Shown here piece by piece: positions 3,610-28,556 of a DNA stretch of 64,000 nt. How positions within the stretch are numbered: the stretch's first letter is position 1; every line of letters starts with the position of its first letter. The notes under the pieces are model-generated. The model ran no database searches, had not been told where the DNA came from, and saw nothing but the letters and a program-made list of their open reading frames with translations. Made by a program: the position numbers and the translations under genes. This DNA is from Methanooceanicella nereidis (GTDB taxonomy: Archaea; Halobacteriota; Methanocellia; Methanocellales; Methanocellaceae), in the NCBI RefSeq assembly GCF_021023085.1, contig NZ_PGCK01000002.1, positions 62,001 to 126,000 on the forward strand. Reading direction: 5' to 3'.

Positions 3610-3963
3610 ATGAAGGTCTGCATACCTAAGGACAGGAATAAGGTGGCCAGGAATTTCGGGAACGCTGACGAGTTCGTGCTTTATGAGATCGAGGATGGAA
3701 AGATCATCGGTAGAGACTTGATAAAAAACCCGAGCCGCGAGCAGGCTTCATCGCCGAAAATGATGCCGAAGATAGGAGTCACTCATATCATAGCCGATGG
3801 AATAGGCAAGCGTGCGGTAGACATGTTAAAGGATGAGAACATACCGGTTTACCCTGGCGCTAAGGGAACTTTAGATGAAGCTATTGAGAAGTTCTTGCGA
3901 GGAGAATTAAAATGCGCATTTGAGCCTTCGGGAGAATATCCCTGTGAAGAGGGACGAAAGTAA
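3610..3963 (+). CDS. NifX/NifB-domain iron-molybdenum cofactor-type protein (117 aa)
   Basis: Matches the small single-domain Fe-Mo-co binding fold (NifX, NafY, C-terminal NifB). It begins MKVCIPKDRNKVARNFGNAD, and a conserved glycine-rich VTHIIADGIGKRAVDMLKD lies near residues 58-77. Members bind or carry metal-sulfur clusters; stand-alone copies are common in methanogens without a full nif operon, and no nif genes are visible here. Two C-terminal cysteines (CAFEPSGEYPC) could be ligands. A binding site is not obvious upstream. The gene runs into the first long palindromic element about 25 bp after its stop. Confidence 0.85.
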   Translation: MKVCIPKDRNKVARNFGNADEFVLYEIEDGKIIGRDLIKNPSREQASSPKMMPKIGVTHIIADGIGKRAVDMLKDENIPVYPGAKGTLDEAIEKFLRGELKCAFEPSGEYPCEEGRK

Positions 3964-3987: not shown

Positions 3988-4530
3988 TAGTACCTGTCGG
4001 ATGGCAGGTAGATACTAACCTCACGAAAACACAGAAACATAAAATTTTTTTATATGATTTTTAAGGGCACGAAAGCTCTAAGAATTTACTCACTAAACCT
4101 CTAAGGCTCTAGTATCACCGTCAACGCACAAACGTCTCTAATGCTCAACTCAACGCACTAAATTCTCAAATGCACTAACGCTAAAACAAACACCGAACCT
4201 CCCCAAAGCACGAAAGTTCAATAGCACTGTTTATGTTGCGCCTTATTGATCATCATATCCGATATGCTTCAGTCGAGTTAAACGGAAACCGCGCTATTGA
4301 ACTTTAGTGGTTTGGAGAGGTTCGGTGTTTGTTTTAGCGTTAGTGAATTTGAGAATTTAGTGCGTTGAGTCGAGCGTTGGGGATGTTTGTGCGTTGACTG
4401 TGATACTAGGGCAATTAGAGATTTTGTGAGTAAGTTTTTGGTGACTTTGAGACCTTAAAAAAATCATAAAAAAAATTTGTGTTTCTGTGTTTTCGTGAGG
4501 TTAGTATCTACCTGCCATCCGACAGGTACA
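3988..4530. repeat. Long palindromic intergenic element, copy 1 (~540 bp)
   Basis: The two ends are inverted copies: GTACCTGTCGGATGGCAGGT at 3990 and its complement ending at 4529. Arms of about 220 bp match each other imperfectly along their length. The left arm is A/C-rich (cacaaacg, caacgcac) and the right arm G/T-rich. The centre (about 4208-4302) closes with a perfect 13-bp pair AAAGTTCAATAGC / GCTATTGAACTTT. Single-stranded DNA or RNA from it would form a very long branched hairpin. It fills the space between convergent nifX-like and gltX genes. Arm sequence is shared with copies at 34.0 and 50.3 kb, but the central ~90 bp is unrelated. No coding frame is credible. Confidence 0.9.
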
Positions 4531-20642: not shown

Positions 20643-21326
20643 TTACGGAGAATAACCGAAGAAATATTGTGTCGCGGGCGTGTAGGAGCTTGTGCCGTCC
20701 ATCACTGCACCGGTATAGCCCAGTCCCAGCCCCAGCGGGAAAGTATAGGCGCTGCCGAAATCGATCCGTTCTGTCTCTTTTGCTACCATGAGGTCTATGC
20801 TTTCGGCGTATTTAACATAGGATTTATCGGATGTTATTGTCGGGAACGATAGGCCTGCGGAGCCCACCCCGAATCCGGGGAACCCTATGAACGTATTATC
20901 GGTTGCCGCTTCATATGCGAGATCTTTTGAGAACATAGTGGTCGAGGCGTCGCGGAATGCGCCGGAGCTTCCGAAATTTACTCCGGGATAACCGTAGGTA
21001 GACATCCCGAGCGTGATGCCGTTCCAGTTCGGGCCGAAATAGCCCCCTGTGCTTCCCTGAACGCCATAGTTAGGGGATACTTCGCTCGCGACCACGCCGT
21101 ACCTTGTCGTAAGATCTCCGGGAAGGTTCACCCCGAGGTTATTATAGGTCACGCCCTGGCCGGGCACTCCGGCACCGTTCGTGCCGCCGAGCCCTATGGA
21201 CATAGGAAAACCGTATATGTTCGCTCCGCCGTACTGCAGGCCATCGTCGGCGAAAGCAAAGCTCGTCGATATGACAGATAATAGCGTTAAAGCGATAATA
21301 ATGCCAGGGGTTCTATAATGTACCAT
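20643..21326 (-). CDS. Exported glycine/aromatic-rich protein with FPTI segment (227 aa)
   Basis: Signal peptide of about 25 residues (GIIIALTLLSVISTSFAFAD). The mature part is rich in Gly, Tyr, Phe and Ser (GGANIYGFPMSIGLGG, GMSTYGYPGVNFG). Near residue 165 the segment LSFPTITSDKSYVKY, followed by ETERIDF and YTFPLGLG, resembles the FPTI repeat of the four proteins at 25.4-28.3 kb. ATG 21326 has GAAGGGTG about 5 bp upstream. It shares the locus promoter (CGA 21 bp from the TATA box). I do not recognise a named family; an extracellular or surface role is inferred. Confidence 0.75.
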   Translation of the reverse strand: MVHYRTPGIIIALTLLSVISTSFAFADDGLQYGGANIYGFPMSIGLGGTNGAGVPGQGVTYNNLGVNLPGDLTTRYGVVASEVSPNYGVQGSTGGYFGPNWNGITLGMSTYGYPGVNFGSSGAFRDASTTMFSKDLAYEAATDNTFIGFPGFGVGSAGLSFPTITSDKSYVKYAESIDLMVAKETERIDFGSAYTFPLGLGLGYTGAVMDGTSSYTPATQYFFGYSP

Positions 21327-21365
21327 GCAACACCCTTCCAACCTTAAATACAATTAGTCCCGGCT

Positions 21366-21400
21366 AAATAAATATATTATTAACTAATTTAACGATTCAA
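21366..21400 (-). promoter_or_regulatory. Locus-type promoter, exported protein at 20643
   Basis: TATA-like aaatatattatta with its ATATATT at 21372, and cga at 21393, 21 bp away; agcccaaat follows. Same spacing as the other genes of this cluster. Confidence 0.6.
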
Positions 21401-21527
21401 TAGCCCAAATATAAAAAATTAAACTGCAATTAGCATATATTATAACAAATAGAGCTATATTTATCGGTATTTAATATAACTATTGGATAGATAGCATATG
21501 GCCAGCGATATTTTAAAAATAAGTTAA

Positions 21528-21553
21528 CGAATTGAGGGCAATGCCCCAATTCG
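21528..21553 (-). terminator. Hairpin after the gene at 21622
   Basis: Near-perfect palindrome CGAATTGAGGGCA / TGCCCCAATTCG, about 70 bp past the stop. Read leftward it is followed by a T-rich stretch (ttaacttatttttaaaat). Confidence 0.6.
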
Positions 21554-21621
21554 TTCAAGCCGATTTTTCCCAACCTATGTTCCTGATTATGGAGGTTATC
21601 TACTTGATAGGATATGGGTGT

Positions 21622-22380
21622 TTATTGCTGTACCTGCTGCGGTGCCATTTCCATCGGCATCTGCTGCTGGATCTGCGGCATCTGCTGCTGGATCTGCGGC
21701 ATCTGCTGCTGCATCATCGGCATCTGCTGCTGCATCATCGGGAATTGCTGGCCAATGCCAGCGCCGAGACCATATCCACCAATGCCGGTTGTGCCGAGAC
21801 CATATCCGCCAATGCCACAGGTTCCAAGGCCGCATCCGCCGATACCGGCTCCGAGACCATATCCGCCAAGACCTGCTCCGAGACCATATCCGCCAAGACC
21901 TGCTCCGATCGGGCCGCATGGGGCAGCTGCTGCAGGAGCACCTTCAGGTATACATGCCGAGCTTACTGGCATCGTGTATACCTGGGGTATCTTAGACACG
22001 ACAGGTACGGTAGTCGTGACCGGTACTGTGACAGGCACGGTGGTAGAAGTACATGCAGGCCTGACTACTGGCACGGGTATTGTCTGCGGGACTATGACCG
22101 CCCTGGGGACGGTGACAGGGCAAACATCTCCGACCGGTACAGTGACCGGGACCTGGACTGCACTTGTCGCTGGTACTGTTACAGGTACCTGGCTCGTAAC
22201 AGGTATATTACAATAGACCTGGGCTACACAATCCTGTGGCGGGCCATATGCAACAGGTGCTGCACATAAACCGCATCCGCCTGGGATTCCACATCCACAT
22301 TGTGCTAAAGCGGGTGATGTAACTAACAGAGTAGCCATTATCAGCATAATAGCTACAGTTACTTTTCTTGCCATCTTCAT
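21622..22380 (-). CDS. Exported low-complexity protein: PVTVP, GLGGYGLGAG and MMQQQMP repeats (252 aa)
   Basis: Signal peptide MKMARKVTVAIMLIMATLLV then SPALAQ. The mature part has three zones: a Cys/Pro/Val zone with repeated VPVTVP (about residues 60-135), glycine repeats GLGGYGLGAGLGGYGLGAG (about 160-210), and a Met/Gln tail of QQQMPMMQQQMPQIQ. Eleven or so cysteines may cross-link it. Such composition suggests an elastic or aggregating surface material, but no family is recognised. ATG 22380 has AGAGGTG 6 bp upstream; frames in the other strands over this repeat are shadows. Confidence 0.75.
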   Translation of the reverse strand: MKMARKVTVAIMLIMATLLVTSPALAQCGCGIPGGCGLCAAPVAYGPPQDCVAQVYCNIPVTSQVPVTVPATSAVQVPVTVPVGDVCPVTVPRAVIVPQTIPVPVVRPACTSTTVPVTVPVTTTVPVVSKIPQVYTMPVSSACIPEGAPAAAAPCGPIGAGLGGYGLGAGLGGYGLGAGIGGCGLGTCGIGGYGLGTTGIGGYGLGAGIGQQFPMMQQQMPMMQQQMPQIQQQMPQIQQQMPMEMAPQQVQQ

Positions 22381-22421
22381 AACTACACCTCTGAACTGCA
22401 CTTTTATGTCCTACTACACAA

Positions 22422-22455
22422 AATAAATATATTATTATATAAAAATACGAAATAT
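22422..22455 (-). promoter_or_regulatory. Locus-type promoter, gene at 21622
   Basis: ATATATT at 22427 and cga at 22448 (21 bp), followed by aatataaccg. The remaining upstream DNA to 22706 is AT-rich with no gene. Confidence 0.6.
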
Positions 22456-22706
22456 AACCGTTTTAGGTCGCTTTATCGCATTCTAAGTATAAACCAATGA
22501 TAATAATTAAAAAGAGAGTTAATGCAGGGCAATACCTAACATTAGAACAATAAATACGCTTAATTTGATAAAATACCATCTATTTTAAATGCGATAGCCC
22601 TTATTTGAATAATCAGGCTTGTATTTGAAAAATAGATGCATATTTTTATACGGTTTTCTTATCAACAGGATGAACTAAACAACACCCGTAAATAGACAAA
22701 AAGCTT

Positions 22707-22757
22707 ACTGGCCTTTAAAAAAATGGAGGGGGCGTACCTTCCTGCTTTTTTAAGCCA
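22707..22757 (-). terminator. Hairpin overlapping the stop of the gene at 22750
   Basis: TACTGGCCTTTAAAAAA on one side pairs with TTTTTTAAGCCAGTA on the other across a GC-rich loop. It spans the stop codon and gives a T-run leftward. Confidence 0.5.
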
Positions 22758-23214
22758 GTACAGGGAAAGCGAACGGGAGCATTACCTGTGTCTGTTCGAT
22801 ATGTCTGTTGTTCTGGACGAACTGGCCAAGATGAGTGGTCTGGAGATCTCCCTGAGCTATCGGCAGACCAAACGCGGATCCGTCGAACCCGGTCCCGACA
22901 GCCTGATCTACAGTCACGCCCAGGTTATACCCGAGGTCTCCGACCGTGACTGAGCCCAGTCCACCATAACCATATGGATATCCTGCCATACTGCCCACAT
23001 CAACGTCAACGCCCCAGTCTACCCCGATGTTTAGACCGGTAAGACTATATCCCGTGTTTAAAGCGTTTATGTTATTTCCAAAATTAAAGTTTAAGGTGTC
23101 CCCAAGATGTTTATTTACGCTCACCCCCGCACCCACGAAAGCTCCTGCCGGCATTGCCAGCGAAAGCCCGAGGAACAAGGTGGCGAGCACGATCAATACT
23201 CTCGCCTTATCCAT
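22750..23214 (-). CDS. Small exported protein with C-terminal FPTI-like segment (154 aa)
   Basis: Signal peptide RVLIVLATLFLGLSLAMPAG then AFVGAG. A middle region of short Gly/Asn/Val strands (NFGNNINALNTGYSLTGLNI) is followed by FGLPIAQGDLQTTHLGQF and EQTQVMLPFAFPVLA, matching the spacing of the FPTI repeat (aromatic-x-P-x-I, ~25 residues, then E-x5-PFAF). No cysteines. The leader GAGGAGGGTAG before ATG 23214 is shared with four later genes. Function unknown; extracellular. Confidence 0.72.
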   Translation of the reverse strand: MDKARVLIVLATLFLGLSLAMPAGAFVGAGVSVNKHLGDTLNFNFGNNINALNTGYSLTGLNIGVDWGVDVDVGSMAGYPYGYGGLGSVTVGDLGYNLGVTVDQAVGTGFDGSAFGLPIAQGDLQTTHLGQFVQNNRHIEQTQVMLPFAFPVLA

Positions 23215-23257
23215 TTTCTACCCTCCTCAATAGCACGTATATCTTTTACCATTGATT

Positions 23258-23290
23258 TTAAATATATTAGTAATACAATAAGCGAATTAA
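23258..23290 (-). promoter_or_regulatory. Locus-type promoter, gene at 22750
   Basis: ATATATT at 23262 and cga at 23283 (21 bp), then attaaccatat. It lies 45-75 bp upstream of the start, leaving a leader of about 20-25 nt. Confidence 0.6.
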
Positions 23291-23442
23291 CCATATATTT
23301 TAGAATTAAATGGAATAAAAGCTTAAAAAATAGAATTATCAGAATATAGGGCTGATCATGACTTATCAAGGAATAAAAACAAGGCATAAATAGCCCGTAT
23401 TGATCGCCTCATAAGAAGTTCTTGAAAACAATAAAGAAAAGA

Positions 23443-23465
23443 TAGTAGGTGGGTGTCACCTACTA
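23443..23465 (-). terminator. Hairpin after the gene at 23534
   Basis: Perfect 9-bp stem TAGTAGGTG / CACCTACTA with a 5-nt loop, about 70 bp past the stop. Leftward it is followed by tcttttctttattgttttc. Confidence 0.65.
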
Positions 23466-23533
23466 ACAAATATTTTATTTCGCTTCTCATATTACTGTGC
23501 ATGATATGGTGTGGGTATTAAGCGGTAAGGTGA

Positions 23534-23788
23534 TTACCACCACATGCCGCCCCAGCCACCCCATGCAGGCCAGCCCCAGCCAAAGCCGCGACCGAAGCCC
23601 CAGCCGCCCCAGCCAGGCCAGCCCCAGCCGCCCCAGCCAAAGCCGCGACCCCAGCCGCCCCAGCCAAAGCCGCGACCGAAGCCCCAGCCACCCCACCATG
23701 CGGTGACTGTTGGAAGTGCAATAGCTACAAGGGCTAACACAGCTAATACGAGAAGAACGAATAATGCAATTCTTGTCCAGTGTTTCAC
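23534..23788 (-). CDS. Exported or membrane-anchored Gly/Trp-rich mini-protein (84 aa)
   Basis: Begins at GTG 23788 (MKHWTRIALFVLLVLAVLAL), with AGGGGGG about 6 bp upstream. One hydrophobic segment (signal peptide or anchor) is followed by about 50 residues built almost only of Gly, Trp, Phe, Pro and Arg: WGGWGFGRGFGWGGWG repeats, ending WGGMWW. About one residue in four is tryptophan. This extreme composition suggests stacking or adhesive fibres. No known family is recognised. The DNA is strongly repetitive, so opposite-strand Pro-rich frames here are artefacts. Confidence 0.72.
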   Translation of the reverse strand: MKHWTRIALFVLLVLAVLALVAIALPTVTAWWGGWGFGRGFGWGGWGRGFGWGGWGWPGWGGWGFGRGFGWGWPAWGGWGGMWW

Positions 23789-23827
23789 TTCGTTCCCCCC
23801 TACAATATAAAACATTCCGATTAATGA

Positions 23828-23860
23828 TAAAAATATTATTATAATTAATTCACGAAAAAA
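23828..23860 (-). promoter_or_regulatory. Locus-type promoter, gene at 23534
   Basis: AT-rich aaaatattattata with cga at 23853, about 22 bp from the equivalent TATA position, then aaaaaggtccc. Confidence 0.5.
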
Positions 23861-24127
23861 GGTCCCATATTTAATTATAGTATCAAAAAGCCTTTAACAA
23901 TACTATATTATCAAATTTAATCCAAAATCAGTCTTAAAATACCCAATCTATCGATATTATCAGTGTTTTTACAATAAATACCTGTTTTTGGAATGCTTTT
24001 TTATAAAGTGTAACTCCACTAATAAGAATTAGCCGGGGTATAATCGTTTGATCTAAATAAAAATTACAGAGCATTATAAAATTGTATCATGAGTATTACG
24101 AGAGCAGAATATAAAGGTAATAATCAT

Positions 24128-24238
24128 ATGCCGGGATCGATCCAGAGACTGAACAGAATATATGAAAAAGATCCTGGATTAAACGATCATATACGCAAGA
24201 TACACAAATATCGAGTCAAACTGTTGAGAATAAAATAA
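24128..24238 (+). CDS. Possible 36-aa peptide
   Basis: ATG CCG GGA to TAA gives MPGSIQRLNRIYEKDPGLND and then HIRKIHKYRVKLLRIK, basic and helix-like, with AAAGGT about 8 bp before the start. It is the only plus-strand candidate inside the exported-protein cluster. There is no homolog I recognise and chance is a real alternative. The rest of 23860-24250 is AT-rich with no gene. Confidence 0.2.
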   Translation: MPGSIQRLNRIYEKDPGLNDHIRKIHKYRVKLLRIK

Positions 24239-24255
24239 AAAAACAAATGAAATAA

Positions 24256-24274
24256 TGGGGAATGAAATTCCCCA
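24256..24274 (-). terminator. Hairpin after the gene at 24316
   Basis: Perfect 8-bp stem TGGGGAAT / ATTCCCCA, 3-nt loop, about 40 bp past the stop; leftward it runs into tatttcatttgtttttttat. Confidence 0.7.
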
Positions 24275-24315
24275 GTCTTTCTCGTCAGCGATACAGGTCT
24301 AGACTTTTGTTACGC

Positions 24316-25113
24316 CTAACAGATGGACGGAGGCGTGAATGCTACGCGTCCACAGCCGATGGTGAACGGGAAGCCGAAGCCATGCGAACCGAAGTACAAC
24401 GGAGCAGATTTCGTGCAACCTCCAAGACCGAACGCCCACGGCGAAAGAGCCCAGCCAAAGCCGCCAACAGAACCCGTACCAAGAATGAACGGAGCCGCCG
24501 CGCAGATCGCAGGCGTGAATGCTACGCGTCCACAGCCGATGGTGAACGGGAAGCCGAAGCCATGCGAACCGAAGTACAACGGAGCAGATTTCGTGCAACC
24601 TCCAAGACCGAACGCCCACGGCGAAAGAGCCCAGCCAAAGCCGCCAACAGAACCCGTACCAAGAATGAACGGAGCCGCTAGATAGCTTAATCCTGCACCG
24701 CAGCCTCCCAGGAAGCACGGGCTGAAGAATCCTCCGCACCCTGTGCCGAAACACGGGCTGAACTTATTCCAGCAAAGTCCGAACGGTGACAGGCCTCCCC
24801 CAAGAGCATAGTTGAACGGGAAGCAGCCTACGCCAAATGGTGCGAATCCCCAGTTGAATGGGAAGTAGGCTCCGCCAAATGGTCCGAATCCTGCCGCTGC
24901 AGTAGTTGCCGCGATCGGTGCTGCGATAGGCGCAGCTGCAGGCGCGGCTATAGGCGCTGCTGCTGTCGAGACAGCAGAAGTGGCTGCCACTGCTTGCGTC
25001 TGAGCCACATTTGAACTGGATATTCCTGTTGTTTGAGCGGATGCTGGTATGTTAAAGGCAATAAGTAATACGACCAGCATCGTAAGTACTGCCGATTTCT
25101 TTAAGGTACTCAT
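24316..25113 (-). CDS. Exported Ala/Gly/Phe-rich protein with exact internal duplication (265 aa)
   Basis: ATG 25113 (MSTLKKSAVLTMLVVLLIAF) has GGGGGGATT upstream. After the signal peptide come an Ala-rich stretch (AAPIAAPAAAPIAAPIAA), then Phe/Gly/Cys/Pro segments such as FGPFGGAYFPFNWGFAPFG. Finally a 60-residue unit occurs twice in tandem; it starts AAPFILGTGSVGGFGWALSP and includes LYFGSHGFGFPFTIGCG. The two copies are DNA-identical for 168 bp. Cysteines occur in each unit. No named family is recognised; a surface or matrix protein is likely. The duplication is either very recent or kept identical by conversion. Confidence 0.75.
   Translation of the reverse strand: MSTLKKSAVLTMLVVLLIAFNIPASAQTTGISSSNVAQTQAVAATSAVSTAAAPIAAPAAAPIAAPIAATTAAAGFGPFGGAYFPFNWGFAPFGVGCFPFNYALGGGLSPFGLCWNKFSPCFGTGCGGFFSPCFLGGCGAGLSYLAAPFILGTGSVGGFGWALSPWAFGLGGCTKSAPLYFGSHGFGFPFTIGCGRVAFTPAICAAAPFILGTGSVGGFGWALSPWAFGLGGCTKSAPLYFGSHGFGFPFTIGCGRVAFTPPSIC
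24331..24678. repeat. Exact tandem duplication, 180-bp period
   Basis: Bases 24331-24498 and 24511-24678 are identical over 168 bp, including third codon positions, and are separated by 12 bp. The unit is in frame (60 codons) inside the exported-protein gene. Confidence 0.95.
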
Positions 25114-25156
25114 ACAATCCCCCCTACTTGACAATCTAAAAATAGAGGAAACGATA

Positions 25157-25190
25157 ATAAATATATTATTATTTATTATAACGAAATCGT
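25157..25190 (-). promoter_or_regulatory. Locus-type promoter, gene at 24316
   Basis: ATATATT at 25161 and cga at 25182 (21 bp), then aatcgtaccgg. The rest of the gap to 25431 has no gene. Confidence 0.6.
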
Positions 25191-25370
25191 ACCGGTTCCG
25201 ATTCTATTATCACAGCAATCGGATAAAAAAATACAGATATTATTTGCTGAATGGGTCATTGTAGTTGCTAATTATCCAATTATGACCGAGAGCCCGTAAT
25301 ATATGATGTCTTATTACACTTTTATGATGCCAGACGTACCTTATGATAGGTCCGGAAAAAATAAAAGTGT

Positions 25371-25405
25371 GGGAGGATGAACCCGCAGGGTCCTGTATCC
25401 CTCCG
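25371..25405 (-). terminator. Possible hairpin after the gene at 25432
   Basis: gggaggat at 25371 pairs imperfectly with atccctcc at 25398 across a GC-rich loop; leftward it is followed by acacttttattttttcc. Confidence 0.4.
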
Positions 25406-25431
25406 CCCGCATCATATATGCTTTACTTTGT

Positions 25432-25803
25432 TTAGATGAATCCCATAGATGGTATGGGCGAGCATCCGATGCTTAAGTACGGGTATGCAAAGCAGAACGA
25501 TTCCCGCTCTTCCATGAACCTGCATTGCTTGAATAAGCTTTCAGAGTCCGCGTTTTGAAGGATCGTCGGGAATGCCGAGCTGACACCTACACCGCCGAAA
25601 TCCGAGAATCCGCTGCCGAACGCTATCTCTGCGCCCTGTACATCTCTTGCCTGTGCGAATTGGTTTTCGAATACGGTAAGCGAGTGATCCGAACTCATCG
25701 TCGGGAAACCCCAGGACATAGGCACAAGGCTGGAGCTCGCGGGCAACGTGATCAGAGCAACAGCAAAGGCAAGCATGATAATAGCTACTAATTTTCTCAC
25801 CAT
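25432..25803 (-). CDS. Small exported FPTI-repeat protein (123 aa)
   Basis: Signal peptide MVRKLVAIIMLAFAVALITL then PASSSLVP. Two repeats are visible: SWGFPTMSSDHSLTVFENQF, ending EIAF, and SAFPTILQNADSESLFKQCR, ending ESFCFAYPY. This is the most diverged of four paralogs (others at 26077, 26965 and 27855). Two cysteines in repeat 2 match cysteines of the paralogs. It shares the leader GAGGAGGGTAGTAT and the promoter with them. Unknown function; extracellular. Confidence 0.78.
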   Translation of the reverse strand: MVRKLVAIIMLAFAVALITLPASSSLVPMSWGFPTMSSDHSLTVFENQFAQARDVQGAEIAFGSGFSDFGGVGVSSAFPTILQNADSESLFKQCRFMEERESFCFAYPYLSIGCSPIPSMGFI

Positions 25804-25850
25804 GTTATACTACCCTCCTCAATAATTATTGAATATGTATCGCGGACGAT

Positions 25851-25890
25851 AATTAATATATTAGTATATATAAAAACGAATATTCAGCCA
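25851..25890 (-). promoter_or_regulatory. Locus-type promoter, gene at 25432
   Basis: ATATATT at 25856 and cga at 25877 (21 bp), then atattcagcca. Confidence 0.6.
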
Positions 25891-26033
25891 TTTAATCCAA
25901 TATTATACAGTATTAACCAATAATAATCCAAATAAAATACGTTGTTCATCAAACGCATGGGAGCACCGCATAATTACAGGGTTTTAAAAGACCTGTAAAA
26001 CGCCGTAAATCCGATCTAAAAAAATGAAAATAT

Positions 26034-26056
26034 AATGAGAGGTTTAAGGGCTCTCA
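26034..26056 (-). terminator. Hairpin after the gene at 26077
   Basis: Stem ATGAGAG / CTCTCAT with a 9-nt loop, 20 bp past the stop, then leftward tatattttcatttttttag. Confidence 0.6.
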
Positions 26057-26076
26057 TCATATTCACTTATGCTTAC

Positions 26077-26496
26077 TTAGAACCCGAAGCCGAAGCCAGG
26101 TAATGCACATCCGCCGACGGCTGCGAACGGATATGAGAAGCACGCTGTCTCTGCAGTCTCAGCGAAGTCACAGTGCGTAAGGACCTGAGCCTGATCAACA
26201 CTCTGGACTATGGTCGGGAACGCAAGAGATGCTCCACAGAACGGGATCGCTACTGCGCCATCCTGGCAGAGAGACAGACCGTTGGTCTCCGTCTTTGCAG
26301 GAGTGAAGCAGATCGCAACTGCCTCGTTGTCAAAAGCTGCCGCAGTGTCACGGTTGAACGCAAGAGTCTCGCCAGTCTGAGAAATAGTCGGGAAACCGAA
26401 CTGGGTCGCGACAAGGCTGGCACCTGCAGGCAAGATCATACCCGCGATGGCAAGAGCCAGCACTAAAAACATTCCGTATCTTATCACCTTACTCAT
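26077..26496 (-). CDS. Small exported FPTI-repeat protein, paralog A (139 aa)
   Basis: Signal peptide MSKVIRYGMFLVLALAIAGM then ILPAGA. Mature chain of ~113 residues with two repeats: FGFPTISQTGETLAFNRD, ending EAVAICF, and LAFPTIVQSVDQAQVLTHCD, ending ACFSYPF. It ends GFGFGF. Five cysteines may pair. The signal region is nearly identical in DNA to the gene at 27855. Monocistronic by layout (own promoter and hairpin). No known family recognised; extracellular role inferred. Confidence 0.8.
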   Translation of the reverse strand: MSKVIRYGMFLVLALAIAGMILPAGASLVATQFGFPTISQTGETLAFNRDTAAAFDNEAVAICFTPAKTETNGLSLCQDGAVAIPFCGASLAFPTIVQSVDQAQVLTHCDFAETAETACFSYPFAAVGGCALPGFGFGF

Positions 26497-26545
26497 ATAA
26501 TACCCTCCTCAATTTCTTAATGAGAGTATAATAACTAAAAATTAA

Positions 26546-26580
26546 AACATATTTAATCATAAATGCGAATAATAAGCCAT
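26546..26580 (-). promoter_or_regulatory. Locus-type promoter, gene at 26077
   Basis: acatatttaatc with cga at 26566 (19 bp spacing), then ataataagccat, identical in this part to the promoter of the gene at 26965. Confidence 0.65.
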
Positions 26581-26922
26581 AAAAGCGGGGTATTAACAGA
26601 TAGATCTACTAAATGATAGATAATAAGATATATCGCTTAATGTAAAGATGATTGATATTCCAATACGTTAAAATTTTTCACGGACGTTTTTCTAAATTTA
26701 TAATTTCGTTACAGGTTTTTGTTCGAGAATTTTTGTGATTTTTTAGCTTCTGGCCTATTCCATAGTATTTATCCACACATGGATCGCACATAAATAAATG
26801 GCAAATTGGTTCGCATGGGGGAACATAACCCTAAAAATTAAAGAAAGTAAATGTTATTTTCTTGAAATTTTTTAGAGATATTTGAATAGACTGATTTTGT
26901 CTAAAGTTTAAAAAAAATGAAT

Positions 26923-26948
26923 TAGCAGGAGAAGTGATCCTCCTGCTA
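26923..26948 (-). terminator. Hairpin after the gene at 26965
   Basis: Stem TAGCAGGAG / CTCCTGCTA, about 20 bp past the stop; leftward T-rich (attcattttttttaaac). The gene at 27855 has a sister hairpin. Confidence 0.7.
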
Positions 26949-26964
26949 GCATAACACTACCTGC

Positions 26965-27381
26965 TTAGAACCCAAAGCCGAAGCCAGGTAATGGTACGCC
27001 GCCAACGCCTGCGAACGGATATGAGAAGCACGCTGTCTCCTTGGTCTGTGCGAAGTCACAGTGCGTAAGGACCTGAGCCTGATCAACAGTCTGGACTATG
27101 GTCGGGAACGCAAGAGATGCTCCGCAGAACGGGATAGCGGTTGCCCCTTCTTGTGCGAGATAGAGACCGTTGGTCTCAGTCACTGCAGGAGTGAAGCAAA
27201 TTGCTACTGCCTCATTATCAAAAGCTGCCGCTGTGTCACGGTTGAACGCAAGAGTCTCGCCAGCCTGGTAAATGGTCGGGAAACCAAACTGAGTCGCGAC
27301 AAGAGACGCACCGGCCGGTACTATCATACTAGCTACTGCGATAGCCAGTAACAGGAAAATTCCGAAATTTTTCACCTTCAT
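26965..27381 (-). CDS. Small exported FPTI-repeat protein, paralog B (138 aa)
   Basis: Signal peptide MKVKNFGIFLLLAIAVASMI then VPAGA. The mature part has two FPTI repeats (FGFPTIYQAGETLAFNRD; LAFPTIVQTVDQAQVLTHCD) and ends LPGFGFGF. The mature sequence is identical in protein to that of the gene at 27855, and almost identical in DNA, while the signal region differs. Leader GAGGAGGGTAG before ATG 27381. Function unknown. Confidence 0.8.
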   Translation of the reverse strand: MKVKNFGIFLLLAIAVASMIVPAGASLVATQFGFPTIYQAGETLAFNRDTAAAFDNEAVAICFTPAVTETNGLYLAQEGATAIPFCGASLAFPTIVQTVDQAQVLTHCDFAQTKETACFSYPFAGVGGVPLPGFGFGF

Positions 27382-27430
27382 TAACTACCCTCCTCAATTA
27401 TTAAAAGAGTGTTATACAACCCTGAATTAA

Positions 27431-27465
27431 TACATATTTAATCATAAATGCGAATAATAAGCCAT
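27431..27465 (-). promoter_or_regulatory. Locus-type promoter, gene at 26965
   Basis: acatatttaatc at 27432 and cga at 27451 (19 bp), then ataataagccat. The block from acatattt to gccat matches the promoter of the gene at 26077. Confidence 0.65.
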
Positions 27466-27813
27466 TAAAACGGGCTTATAACAAATAAATCCTTAAATCC
27501 TGGTAGAATAAAAGCAATCATCGACTGCCATAACCACAACGTATGGAAGCCGGGCATAGTAAAACATAGCGTTAGTATATCATGTAAAATGGATCTTATA
27601 ATATGATATACGACTCCGTTTTTTATCACTTTTTTGATATGAAAGTATGGATATAAAGACATGTATAAAGTGATGAGTGAATTAAGAGGAGTACATAGAA
27701 AAGATCATTATCATTTTTTATGATCAGATCCGGTTTCTCCTGGAAAGAAAATAATATTTTTTGTAGTTAAGATATTGATAAAAAAATATGGATGAAATTT
27801 TTAAAAATTGATC

Positions 27814-27837
27814 GGCAGGGGAGTTTATCCTCCTGCC
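27814..27837 (-). terminator. Hairpin after the gene at 27855
   Basis: Stem GGCAGG / CCTGCC with extended pairing, 20 bp past the stop, then leftward caatttttaaaaatttc. Sister of the hairpin at 26923. Confidence 0.65.
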
Positions 27838-27854
27838 ACATTCATTCAACCAGC

Positions 27855-28274
27855 TTAGAACCCGAAGCCGAAGCCAGGTAATGGTACGCCGCCAACGCCT
27901 GCGAACGGATATGAGAAGCACGCTGTCTCCTTGGTCTGTGCGAAGTCACAGTGCGTAAGGACCTGAGCCTGATCAACAGTCTGGACTATGGTCGGGAACG
28001 CAAGAGATGCTCCGCAGAACGGGATAGCGGTTGCCCCTTCTTGTGCGAGATAGAGACCGTTGGTCTCAGTCACTGCAGGAGTGAAGCAGATCGCTACTGC
28101 CTCATTATCAAAAGCTGCCGCTGTGTCACGGTTGAACGCAAGAGTCTCGCCAGCCTGGTAAATGGTCGGGAAACCAAACTGAGTCGCGACAAGGCTGGCA
28201 CCTGCAGGCAAGATCATACCCGCGATGGCAAGAGCCAGCACTAAAAACATTCCGTATCTTATCACCTTACTCAT
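27855..28274 (-). CDS. Small exported FPTI-repeat protein, mosaic paralog (139 aa)
   Basis: The signal region MSKVIRYGMFLVLALAIAGM matches paralog A (26077) at DNA level, whereas everything after about base 28192 toward the stop matches paralog B (26965). The switch falls in the shared gtcgcgacaag, just after the signal peptide region. The mature protein has two FPTI repeats and ends GFGFGF. Leader GAGGAGGGTAGTAT before ATG 28274. Either gene conversion or duplication followed by recombination explains it. Function unknown; exported. Confidence 0.8.
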   Translation of the reverse strand: MSKVIRYGMFLVLALAIAGMILPAGASLVATQFGFPTIYQAGETLAFNRDTAAAFDNEAVAICFTPAVTETNGLYLAQEGATAIPFCGASLAFPTIVQTVDQAQVLTHCDFAQTKETACFSYPFAGVGGVPLPGFGFGF

Positions 28275-28320
28275 ATACTACCCTCCTCAATAGGCAAGAC
28301 AATGTTTATTATTCATTTTT

Positions 28321-28357
28321 AAATATATTATTAGCGTTTGTAGTGAATTAAATGGCC
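28321..28357 (-). promoter_or_regulatory. Locus-type promoter, gene at 27855
   Basis: ATATATT at 28323; a variant tga replaces cga at 28344 (21 bp), then attaaatggcc. The rest of 28358-28556 has no gene. Confidence 0.5.
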
Positions 28358-28556
28358 AAATAATTCTATAATTTCAATTTAACATGATAAATATGATTTT
28401 TATAAATAAAATAAGTAATTATGAGGTAAATCTAAAAATAAGGGCAAAAATAACCTGCATATCTATAGCTTGAACAAAAGCTCAAATGATCTGTGAGCAA
28501 GCTTAAAACCTAAAATGAATTAAATTGTCAAAGTTAAGAAAATAAAATGCAAGAAT

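Follow-up and report, generated by a model that had tools for sequence, protein, structure and literature searches.

The gene cluster and its products

The window, i.e. the whole stretch of DNA that was analysed, comprises 64,000 nt of a Methanocellaceae genome of 3.19 Mb (G000, contig C2, positions 62001-126000; coordinates below are those of the window). Between 20643 and 28274 nine open reading frames are located on the minus strand. As proposed in the original prediction, each of them encodes a protein with a hydrophobic N-terminal signal or anchor, judged by eye from the hydrophobic N terminus.

20643..21326, minus strand: g1, exported protein, 227 aa from the ATG at 21326; distant homologue of the g6-g9 family (family profile E 2.7e-4)
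21622..22380, minus strand: g2, exported VPVTVP-repeat / Gly-rich protein, 252 aa
22750..23214, minus strand: g3, exported protein, 154 aa
23534..23788, minus strand: g4, small Gly/Trp-rich protein with N-terminal hydrophobic anchor or signal, 84 aa from GTG
24316..25113, minus strand: g5, exported Gly/Phe-rich protein, 265 aa
25432..25803, minus strand: g6, exported protein of the GFPT family, 123 aa
26077..26496, minus strand: g7, exported protein of the GFPT family, 139 aa
26965..27381, minus strand: g8, exported protein of the GFPT family, 138 aa
27855..28274, minus strand: g9, exported protein of the GFPT family, 139 aa

A hairpin with a T-rich tail is clear downstream of g2 and g4-g9 and not clear for g1 and g3, in agreement with the assumption that most of the genes end in this way. 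Hence the genes look monocistronic. g5 contains an internal direct repeat of 171 nt (24328-24498 and 24508-24678, 99%), and g2 has a paralogue in its own genome (C10:31.3 kb) with the same promoter.

None of the nine ORFs scored above the family cut-off in Pfam. The g6-g9 proteins consist of two similar halves of the pattern [GA]FPTI-Q...F...E...YP. Using a profile, this family, to which g1 belongs distantly, was found in four Methanocellaceae; none turned up in the other 291 genomes searched within the phylum. A sequence search of the PDB with g9 gave no significant relative. The AlphaFold model of g9 (based on 24 sequences) is of low confidence, with a mean pLDDT of 70.6 and a pTM of 0.28; it contains two long strands (37-63 and 95-121). 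Foldseek returned generic long-hairpin matches only for this model (E>0.01, TM<0.25), which we left uninterpreted. The cluster proteins presumably represent surface or extracellular structural material.

A two-part promoter element with nearly fixed spacing

The nine genes have a common promoter design, WTTCG-N13-TAATATATTWAT. An ATATATT-like TATA box is located 48-58 bp before the start codon in all nine (about 50-60 bp in the aligned upstream regions), and the leaders carry a strong ribosome-binding site of the GAGGAGGG or GGGGGG type. Measured from centre to centre, WTTCG and the TATA box are ~20 bp apart, about two helical turns.

21369..21396, minus strand: g1 promoter, ATCG (21393-21396) - N13 - TAATATATTTA (21369-21379)
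22424..22451, minus strand: g2 promoter, TTCG (22448-22451) - N13 - TAATATATTTA
23259..23286, minus strand: g3 promoter, TTCG (23283-23286) - N13 - TAATATATTTA
23828..23856, minus strand: g4 promoter, TTCG (23853-23856) - N14 - TAATATTTTTA
25158..25185, minus strand: g5 promoter, TTCG (25182-25185) - N13 - TAATATATTTA
25853..25880, minus strand: g6 promoter, TTCG (25877-25880) - N13 - TAATATATTAA
26544..26569, minus strand: g7 promoter, short-spaced, TTCG (26566-26569) - N11 - AAATATGTTTT; weak model match (E 3.9)
27429..27454, minus strand: g8 promoter, short-spaced, TTCG (27451-27454) - N11 - AAATATGTATT; weak model match (E 0.77)
28320..28347, minus strand: g9 promoter, TTCA (28344-28347) - N13 - TAATATATTTA

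The original prediction had listed spacings of 21, 22 and 19 bp, and these correspond to TTCG-N13-TAATATATT in g1, g2, g3, g5, g6 and g9, to N14 in g4 and to N11 in g7 and g8, respectively. The deviating TGA reported for one of the 21-bp promoters was also recovered; it is the TTCA of g9. TTCG is short and non-palindromic, and g7 and g8 deviate in spacing as well as in the TATA box, which sets limits to a regulon reading. Moreover several cluster genes are paralogues, so that promoter counts are not fully independent. An inverted TTCG partner was not evident in the column frequencies of 35 aligned promoters.

A larger site, GGCT-N4-ATTCG, did not hold. The GGCT block reaches at most 0.26 bit per column across the 35 promoters, and its GG is conserved neither in relatives nor at unlinked sites. 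What is conserved is WTTCG(Y).

In order to estimate how often the element arises by chance, the nine upstream regions were shuffled under a dinucleotide model. For a strict match, TTCG had to precede, at N11-14, a TATA box that agreed in at least 8 of 11 positions. Such a match was found in 6 of the 9 regions, compared to a mean of 0.2 of 9 and a maximum of 3 in 2000 shuffles. With a relaxed element 8 of 9 were observed, the TATA box of g8 falling under the 8/11 cut. The regions upstream of 145 other ORFs in this genome gave four matches, three of them at further exported-protein genes; the fourth, before a TPR gene (L064), is unconserved in relatives and was regarded as chance.

Conservation of the element in Methanocellaceae

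For comparison, three relatives of the same family were used: G001 (3,179,916 bp), G002 (2,957,635 bp) and G003 (Methanocella sp. PtaU1.Bin125). In all three the cluster is syntenic, located between rpS6e and an MscS-like gene which is followed by the ribosomal protein operon; the G002 stretch compared ends just past g1. Homologues of g4 occupy the same position in all three.

The WTTCG/TATA element also precedes the orthologues in G001, G002 and G003. Ungapped identity across 42 orthologous promoter pairs is 97% for WTTCG (100% in the four core columns) and 92% for the TATA box, while it amounts to 68% in the spacer, 61% at the leader start and only 38% in the flank at -81 to -45. To judge from these identities, the element is under selection, whereas the DNA around it drifts. 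For g5, conservation extends through the leader as far as the start codon. The N14 spacing of g4 recurs in two of the three orthologues (G001 and G003), and the same two genomes also have TTCA before their g9 orthologues, indicating that the deviations are partly inherited.

Occurrence of the element in four genomes

A sequence-only model was built from 22 sites of the relatives, leaving the own genome out of training, and was run on all four genomes. It scored 150 pre-selected candidates per genome, hence weak members may be missed in the following counts. At E<0.05 the model gave 35 matches, 34 of them before exported-protein genes. These comprise 21 training sites, 6 sites of the cluster studied here, i.e. 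6 of its 9 promoters, and 8 unlinked sites. Seven of the unlinked matches precede exported-protein genes; the exception, G001:457.8 kb, lies before a kinase-like gene and was taken as chance. The match at G002:2157.7 kb consists of the TATA half only.

Combining the model with an exact pattern search, seven complete elements were found that are unlinked to the cluster; these precede members of two more exported families. An SFP-type family carries it at C1:85.8 kb in the own genome, at G001:628.7 kb, at G002:2225.7 kb and in G003:C126. The g2-like family carries it at C10:31.3 kb in the own genome, at G001:530.9 kb and in G003:C79. The nine genes are therefore not the whole set, since C1:85.8 kb and C10:31.3 kb are two more clear sites in the same genome; a further one at C1:220.8 kb is degenerate. 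A model extended to 35 sites did not yield any further convincing class beyond the earlier scan. In eight family members located elsewhere in the relatives the element is absent. It thus defines a subset of these families and does not simply come along with the gene.

The spacing itself was evaluated using pairs of the form TTCG-N0-30-WAATATWTTWA, of which the four genomes contain 77. N13 accounts for 23 of them, compared to ~1.8 per other spacing. Exported-protein genes follow 21 of the 23 N13 pairs. The remaining two are G002:768 kb and C2:166 kb of the own genome, the latter before a gene without signal sequence. TAATATATTWA occurs at 50 sites in the own genome. In seven of them WTCG is present at N13; five of these belong to the cluster and two are unlinked, and each precedes an exported-protein gene. 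The g9 promoter, with its TTCA, represents an eighth such site. The original prediction had named an equally frequent spacing before unrelated genes as the outcome that would speak against it; this was not observed, and the reading stands. In the four genomes this two-part element, nearly fixed in its spacing and conserved between orthologues, is an almost exclusive feature of exported-protein genes. Co-regulation of these genes appears well supported on this comparative basis.

What may read the element

Each of the four genomes has one TFB gene. A single TBP gene was found in G000 and G001, and extra TBP matches in G002 and G003. That the TATA variant is read by an alternative TBP or TFB was hence rejected for the own genome and G001: with one TFB and one TBP each, a dedicated basal factor is excluded there. 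Inspection of ORF sequences and synteny revealed no evident regulator gene among the flanking genes common to the four clusters. Next to C1:85.8 kb there is a small winged-helix gene (L064 3648-3962, L066 3527-3859), but it is one of a multi-copy family and no counterpart was seen next to the G002 orthologue (L068), so that it is a weak candidate only.

Taken together our data suggest a lineage-specific regulon of the Methanocellaceae, in which WTTCG-N13-TAATATATTWAT would drive the separate transcription of small secreted, Methanocellaceae-restricted proteins via a putative activator. We assign this reading a probability of about 0.62. The promoter class has nine members in the cluster and about twelve in this genome. 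The ordinary TBP/TFB pair would bind TAATATATTWAT. If transcription starts at the usual distance from TATA, WTTCG would lie at about -48 to -45, and one putative sequence-specific factor would bind there. Most likely this factor would be an activator which helps to recruit TBP/TFB on the same DNA face. The secreted proteins would thereby be made together as one surface programme. We infer an activator as the reader of WTTCG by analogy with archaeal activators upstream of BRE and with a motif in Sulfolobus (see below).

A more far-reaching version seems rather doubtful. Here, a Methanocellaceae-specific factor would read WTTCG at a distance of two helical turns from a specialised TATA variant, and would switch on a secreted coat or fibre of lineage-restricted long-beta-strand proteins, and a small RNA with a C-rich loop beside one unlinked member would add a translational layer.

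Alternatively, no dedicated regulator may be involved, and the element may be part of a core promoter that is strong or of distinct structure. TTCG would then be contacted by general factors (RNA polymerase, TFB, upstream-DNA wrapping), or it would determine how the DNA bends or excludes chromatin; the class would simply mark highly expressed secreted proteins. A short, non-palindromic element at a nearly fixed distance from TATA indeed resembles a core-promoter extension, one TBP/TFB pair has to read it in two genomes, and these genes have very strong GAGGAGGG-type ribosome-binding sites. However, other strong promoters should carry the element as well, and the genome scans returned almost only exported-protein genes. 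Moreover, TTCG at N11-14 precedes 0 of 81 canonical TATA boxes upstream of other ORFs. We consider this explanation unlikely.

The factor bound to WTTCG could also be a repressor that shuts the set off. Position alone does not settle the sign of control, and according to the introduction of PMC5512572 archaeal repressors may bind around TATA/BRE, too. The same source has repressors usually overlapping BRE/TATA or the start site and activators typically upstream of BRE; in the promoters studied here TTCG ends 13 bp before TATA and leaves BRE free, which makes a repressor improbable.

Improbable, too, is a relic of duplication, by which the promoters would be alike since the genes were duplicated together with their upstream DNA, without co-regulation. 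g6-g9 and distantly g1 do form one family, and the C10 gene is a g2 paralogue. Yet g2, g3, g4, g5 and the C1:85.8 kb family carry the element without detected homology to g6-g9, the flank has diverged to 38% identity versus 97% for WTTCG, and the eight family members without the element at other loci show that it is not simply carried along. Finally, although TATA-like strings are common in AT-rich upstream DNA and the pattern was first picked by eye, chance resemblance is ruled out for practical purposes by the shuffles (0.2 of 9), the held-out genome-wide matches, the spacing peak and the cross-species conservation.

Archaeal regulons have so far been defined mostly in a small number of model lineages. 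The putative Methanocellaceae regulon offers a nearly fixed two-part element at about a dozen promoters per genome, with just one TFB in each of the four genomes and one TBP in two of them, so that purification of the reader and a clean test of activator-TBP/TFB spacing would be feasible. Since the secreted proteins are without a Pfam family and their largest family is confined to Methanocellaceae among the genomes searched, a condition that induces such a promoter would show what these methanogens build at their surface.

Comparison with known systems

The papers searched (on Methanocella promoters, regulons, transcriptomes and secreted proteins) contain no matching description, in line with the statement that no such regulon was known. 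A word search gave no mention of the gene set in the main text of the M. conradii transcriptome paper. Hence the literature searched yielded no description of the regulon, its element or its proteins, and the layout is of a known archaeal kind.

In haloarchaeal regulons of alternative TBP/TFB proteins, a distinctive TATA variant is common to the gene set. The promoters described here differ from these by one TFB in the four genomes and one TBP in two. The consensus of Ptr2, the Lrp-type activator of Methanocaldococcus jannaschii, is palindromic, whereas around WTTCG no palindrome is evident from the column frequencies; moreover, Ptr2 uses multiple sites upstream of one promoter. The resemblance lies in an activator, inferred in our case, upstream of BRE that recruits TBP (PMC5512572). 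More generally, archaeal activators typically bind upstream of BRE and help to recruit TBP or TFB (PMC5512572). The EarA regulon (fla operon of Methanococcus maripaludis) is similar in having sites immediately upstream of BRE and in serving extracellular-structure genes of a methanogen, the surface role being presumed in our case. It differs by four 6-bp sites at one operon and a known regulator, compared to one site per promoter at many monocistronic genes (PMC5512572).

UV-inducible promoters of Sulfolobus acidocaldarius contain a short non-palindromic A(N)TTTC hexamer at -44 to -39 that is essential for promoter activity; its reader protein is not identified in that work (PMC5817253). The motif of our promoters is WTTCG(Y) instead of A(N)TTTC and belongs to another lineage, its distance to TATA is apparently longer and almost invariant, and it is linked to a set of secreted proteins rather than to a DNA-damage response. 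The two are alike in layout only and do not represent the same regulon: in both cases a short non-palindromic motif just upstream of BRE/TATA is common to many promoters at a near-fixed distance.

Sequence features of the exported-protein genes

The 5' leaders of two of the nine minus-strand exported-protein genes, g5 (window 25113-25189) and g2 (22380-22455), are conserved nearly base for base with their orthologues between genera, and the conserved stretch reaches the start codon. Judged from sequence, this conservation exceeds what a ribosome-binding site would need.

In each of three genomes g5 additionally harbors a nearly perfect internal direct repeat which differs between species.

Direct repeats within g5
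Window 24328-24678, minus strand: 171 nt, 99%
Stretch L022, 10360-10793: 200 nt, 94%
Stretch L025, 14380-14973: 297 nt, 100%

Near-perfect copies per genome that are yet different between species indicate concerted evolution inside the gene.

The genes g7, g8 and g9 (window 26077-28274) are mosaics. The signal-peptide DNA of g9 is 100% identical to that of g7, with 88% identity in the mature part; against g8 the values are 65% for the signal-peptide DNA and 99% (3 differences) for the mature part. Mature parts are likewise near-identical in the relative G001. The mosaic pattern points to recent gene conversion.

Inspection by eye of the upstream regions of paralogues outside the clusters (stretches L026, L027, L030, L031), which lack the WTTCG-N13-TATA promoter element, revealed a seemingly common motif of the type TTAAAG-N-TTTAAC / CAAACCTTTAA ~100 bp upstream of the start. 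It perhaps marks a second regulatory class within the same protein family.

A conserved stem-loop near an unlinked gene

Downstream of an unlinked exported-protein gene of the proposed regulon lies a conserved stem-loop with the loop AUAUACCCCCCACAC.

Conserved stem-loops with loop AUAUACCCCCCACAC
L064, ~4060-4170 (M. nereidis C1:85.1 kb): one copy
L066, ~3860-3960: one copy
L067, ~4080-4290: two copies

The 15-mer of the loop occurs in 3 of 41 genomes, exclusively at these loci, and an Rfam search with the stem-loop gave zero matches. On its 5' side it is preceded by TGTACATACA-N-GTTGTACT, then TTTATATA. A small winged-helix gene follows in L064 and L066; in the relative G003 (L067), with its two copies of the loop, no winged-helix gene was seen at that locus. 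The adjoining exported-protein gene has a ribosome-binding site of the GUGGGGGU type, to which the C-rich loop could base-pair; this potential pairing makes the stem-loop a candidate small regulatory RNA.
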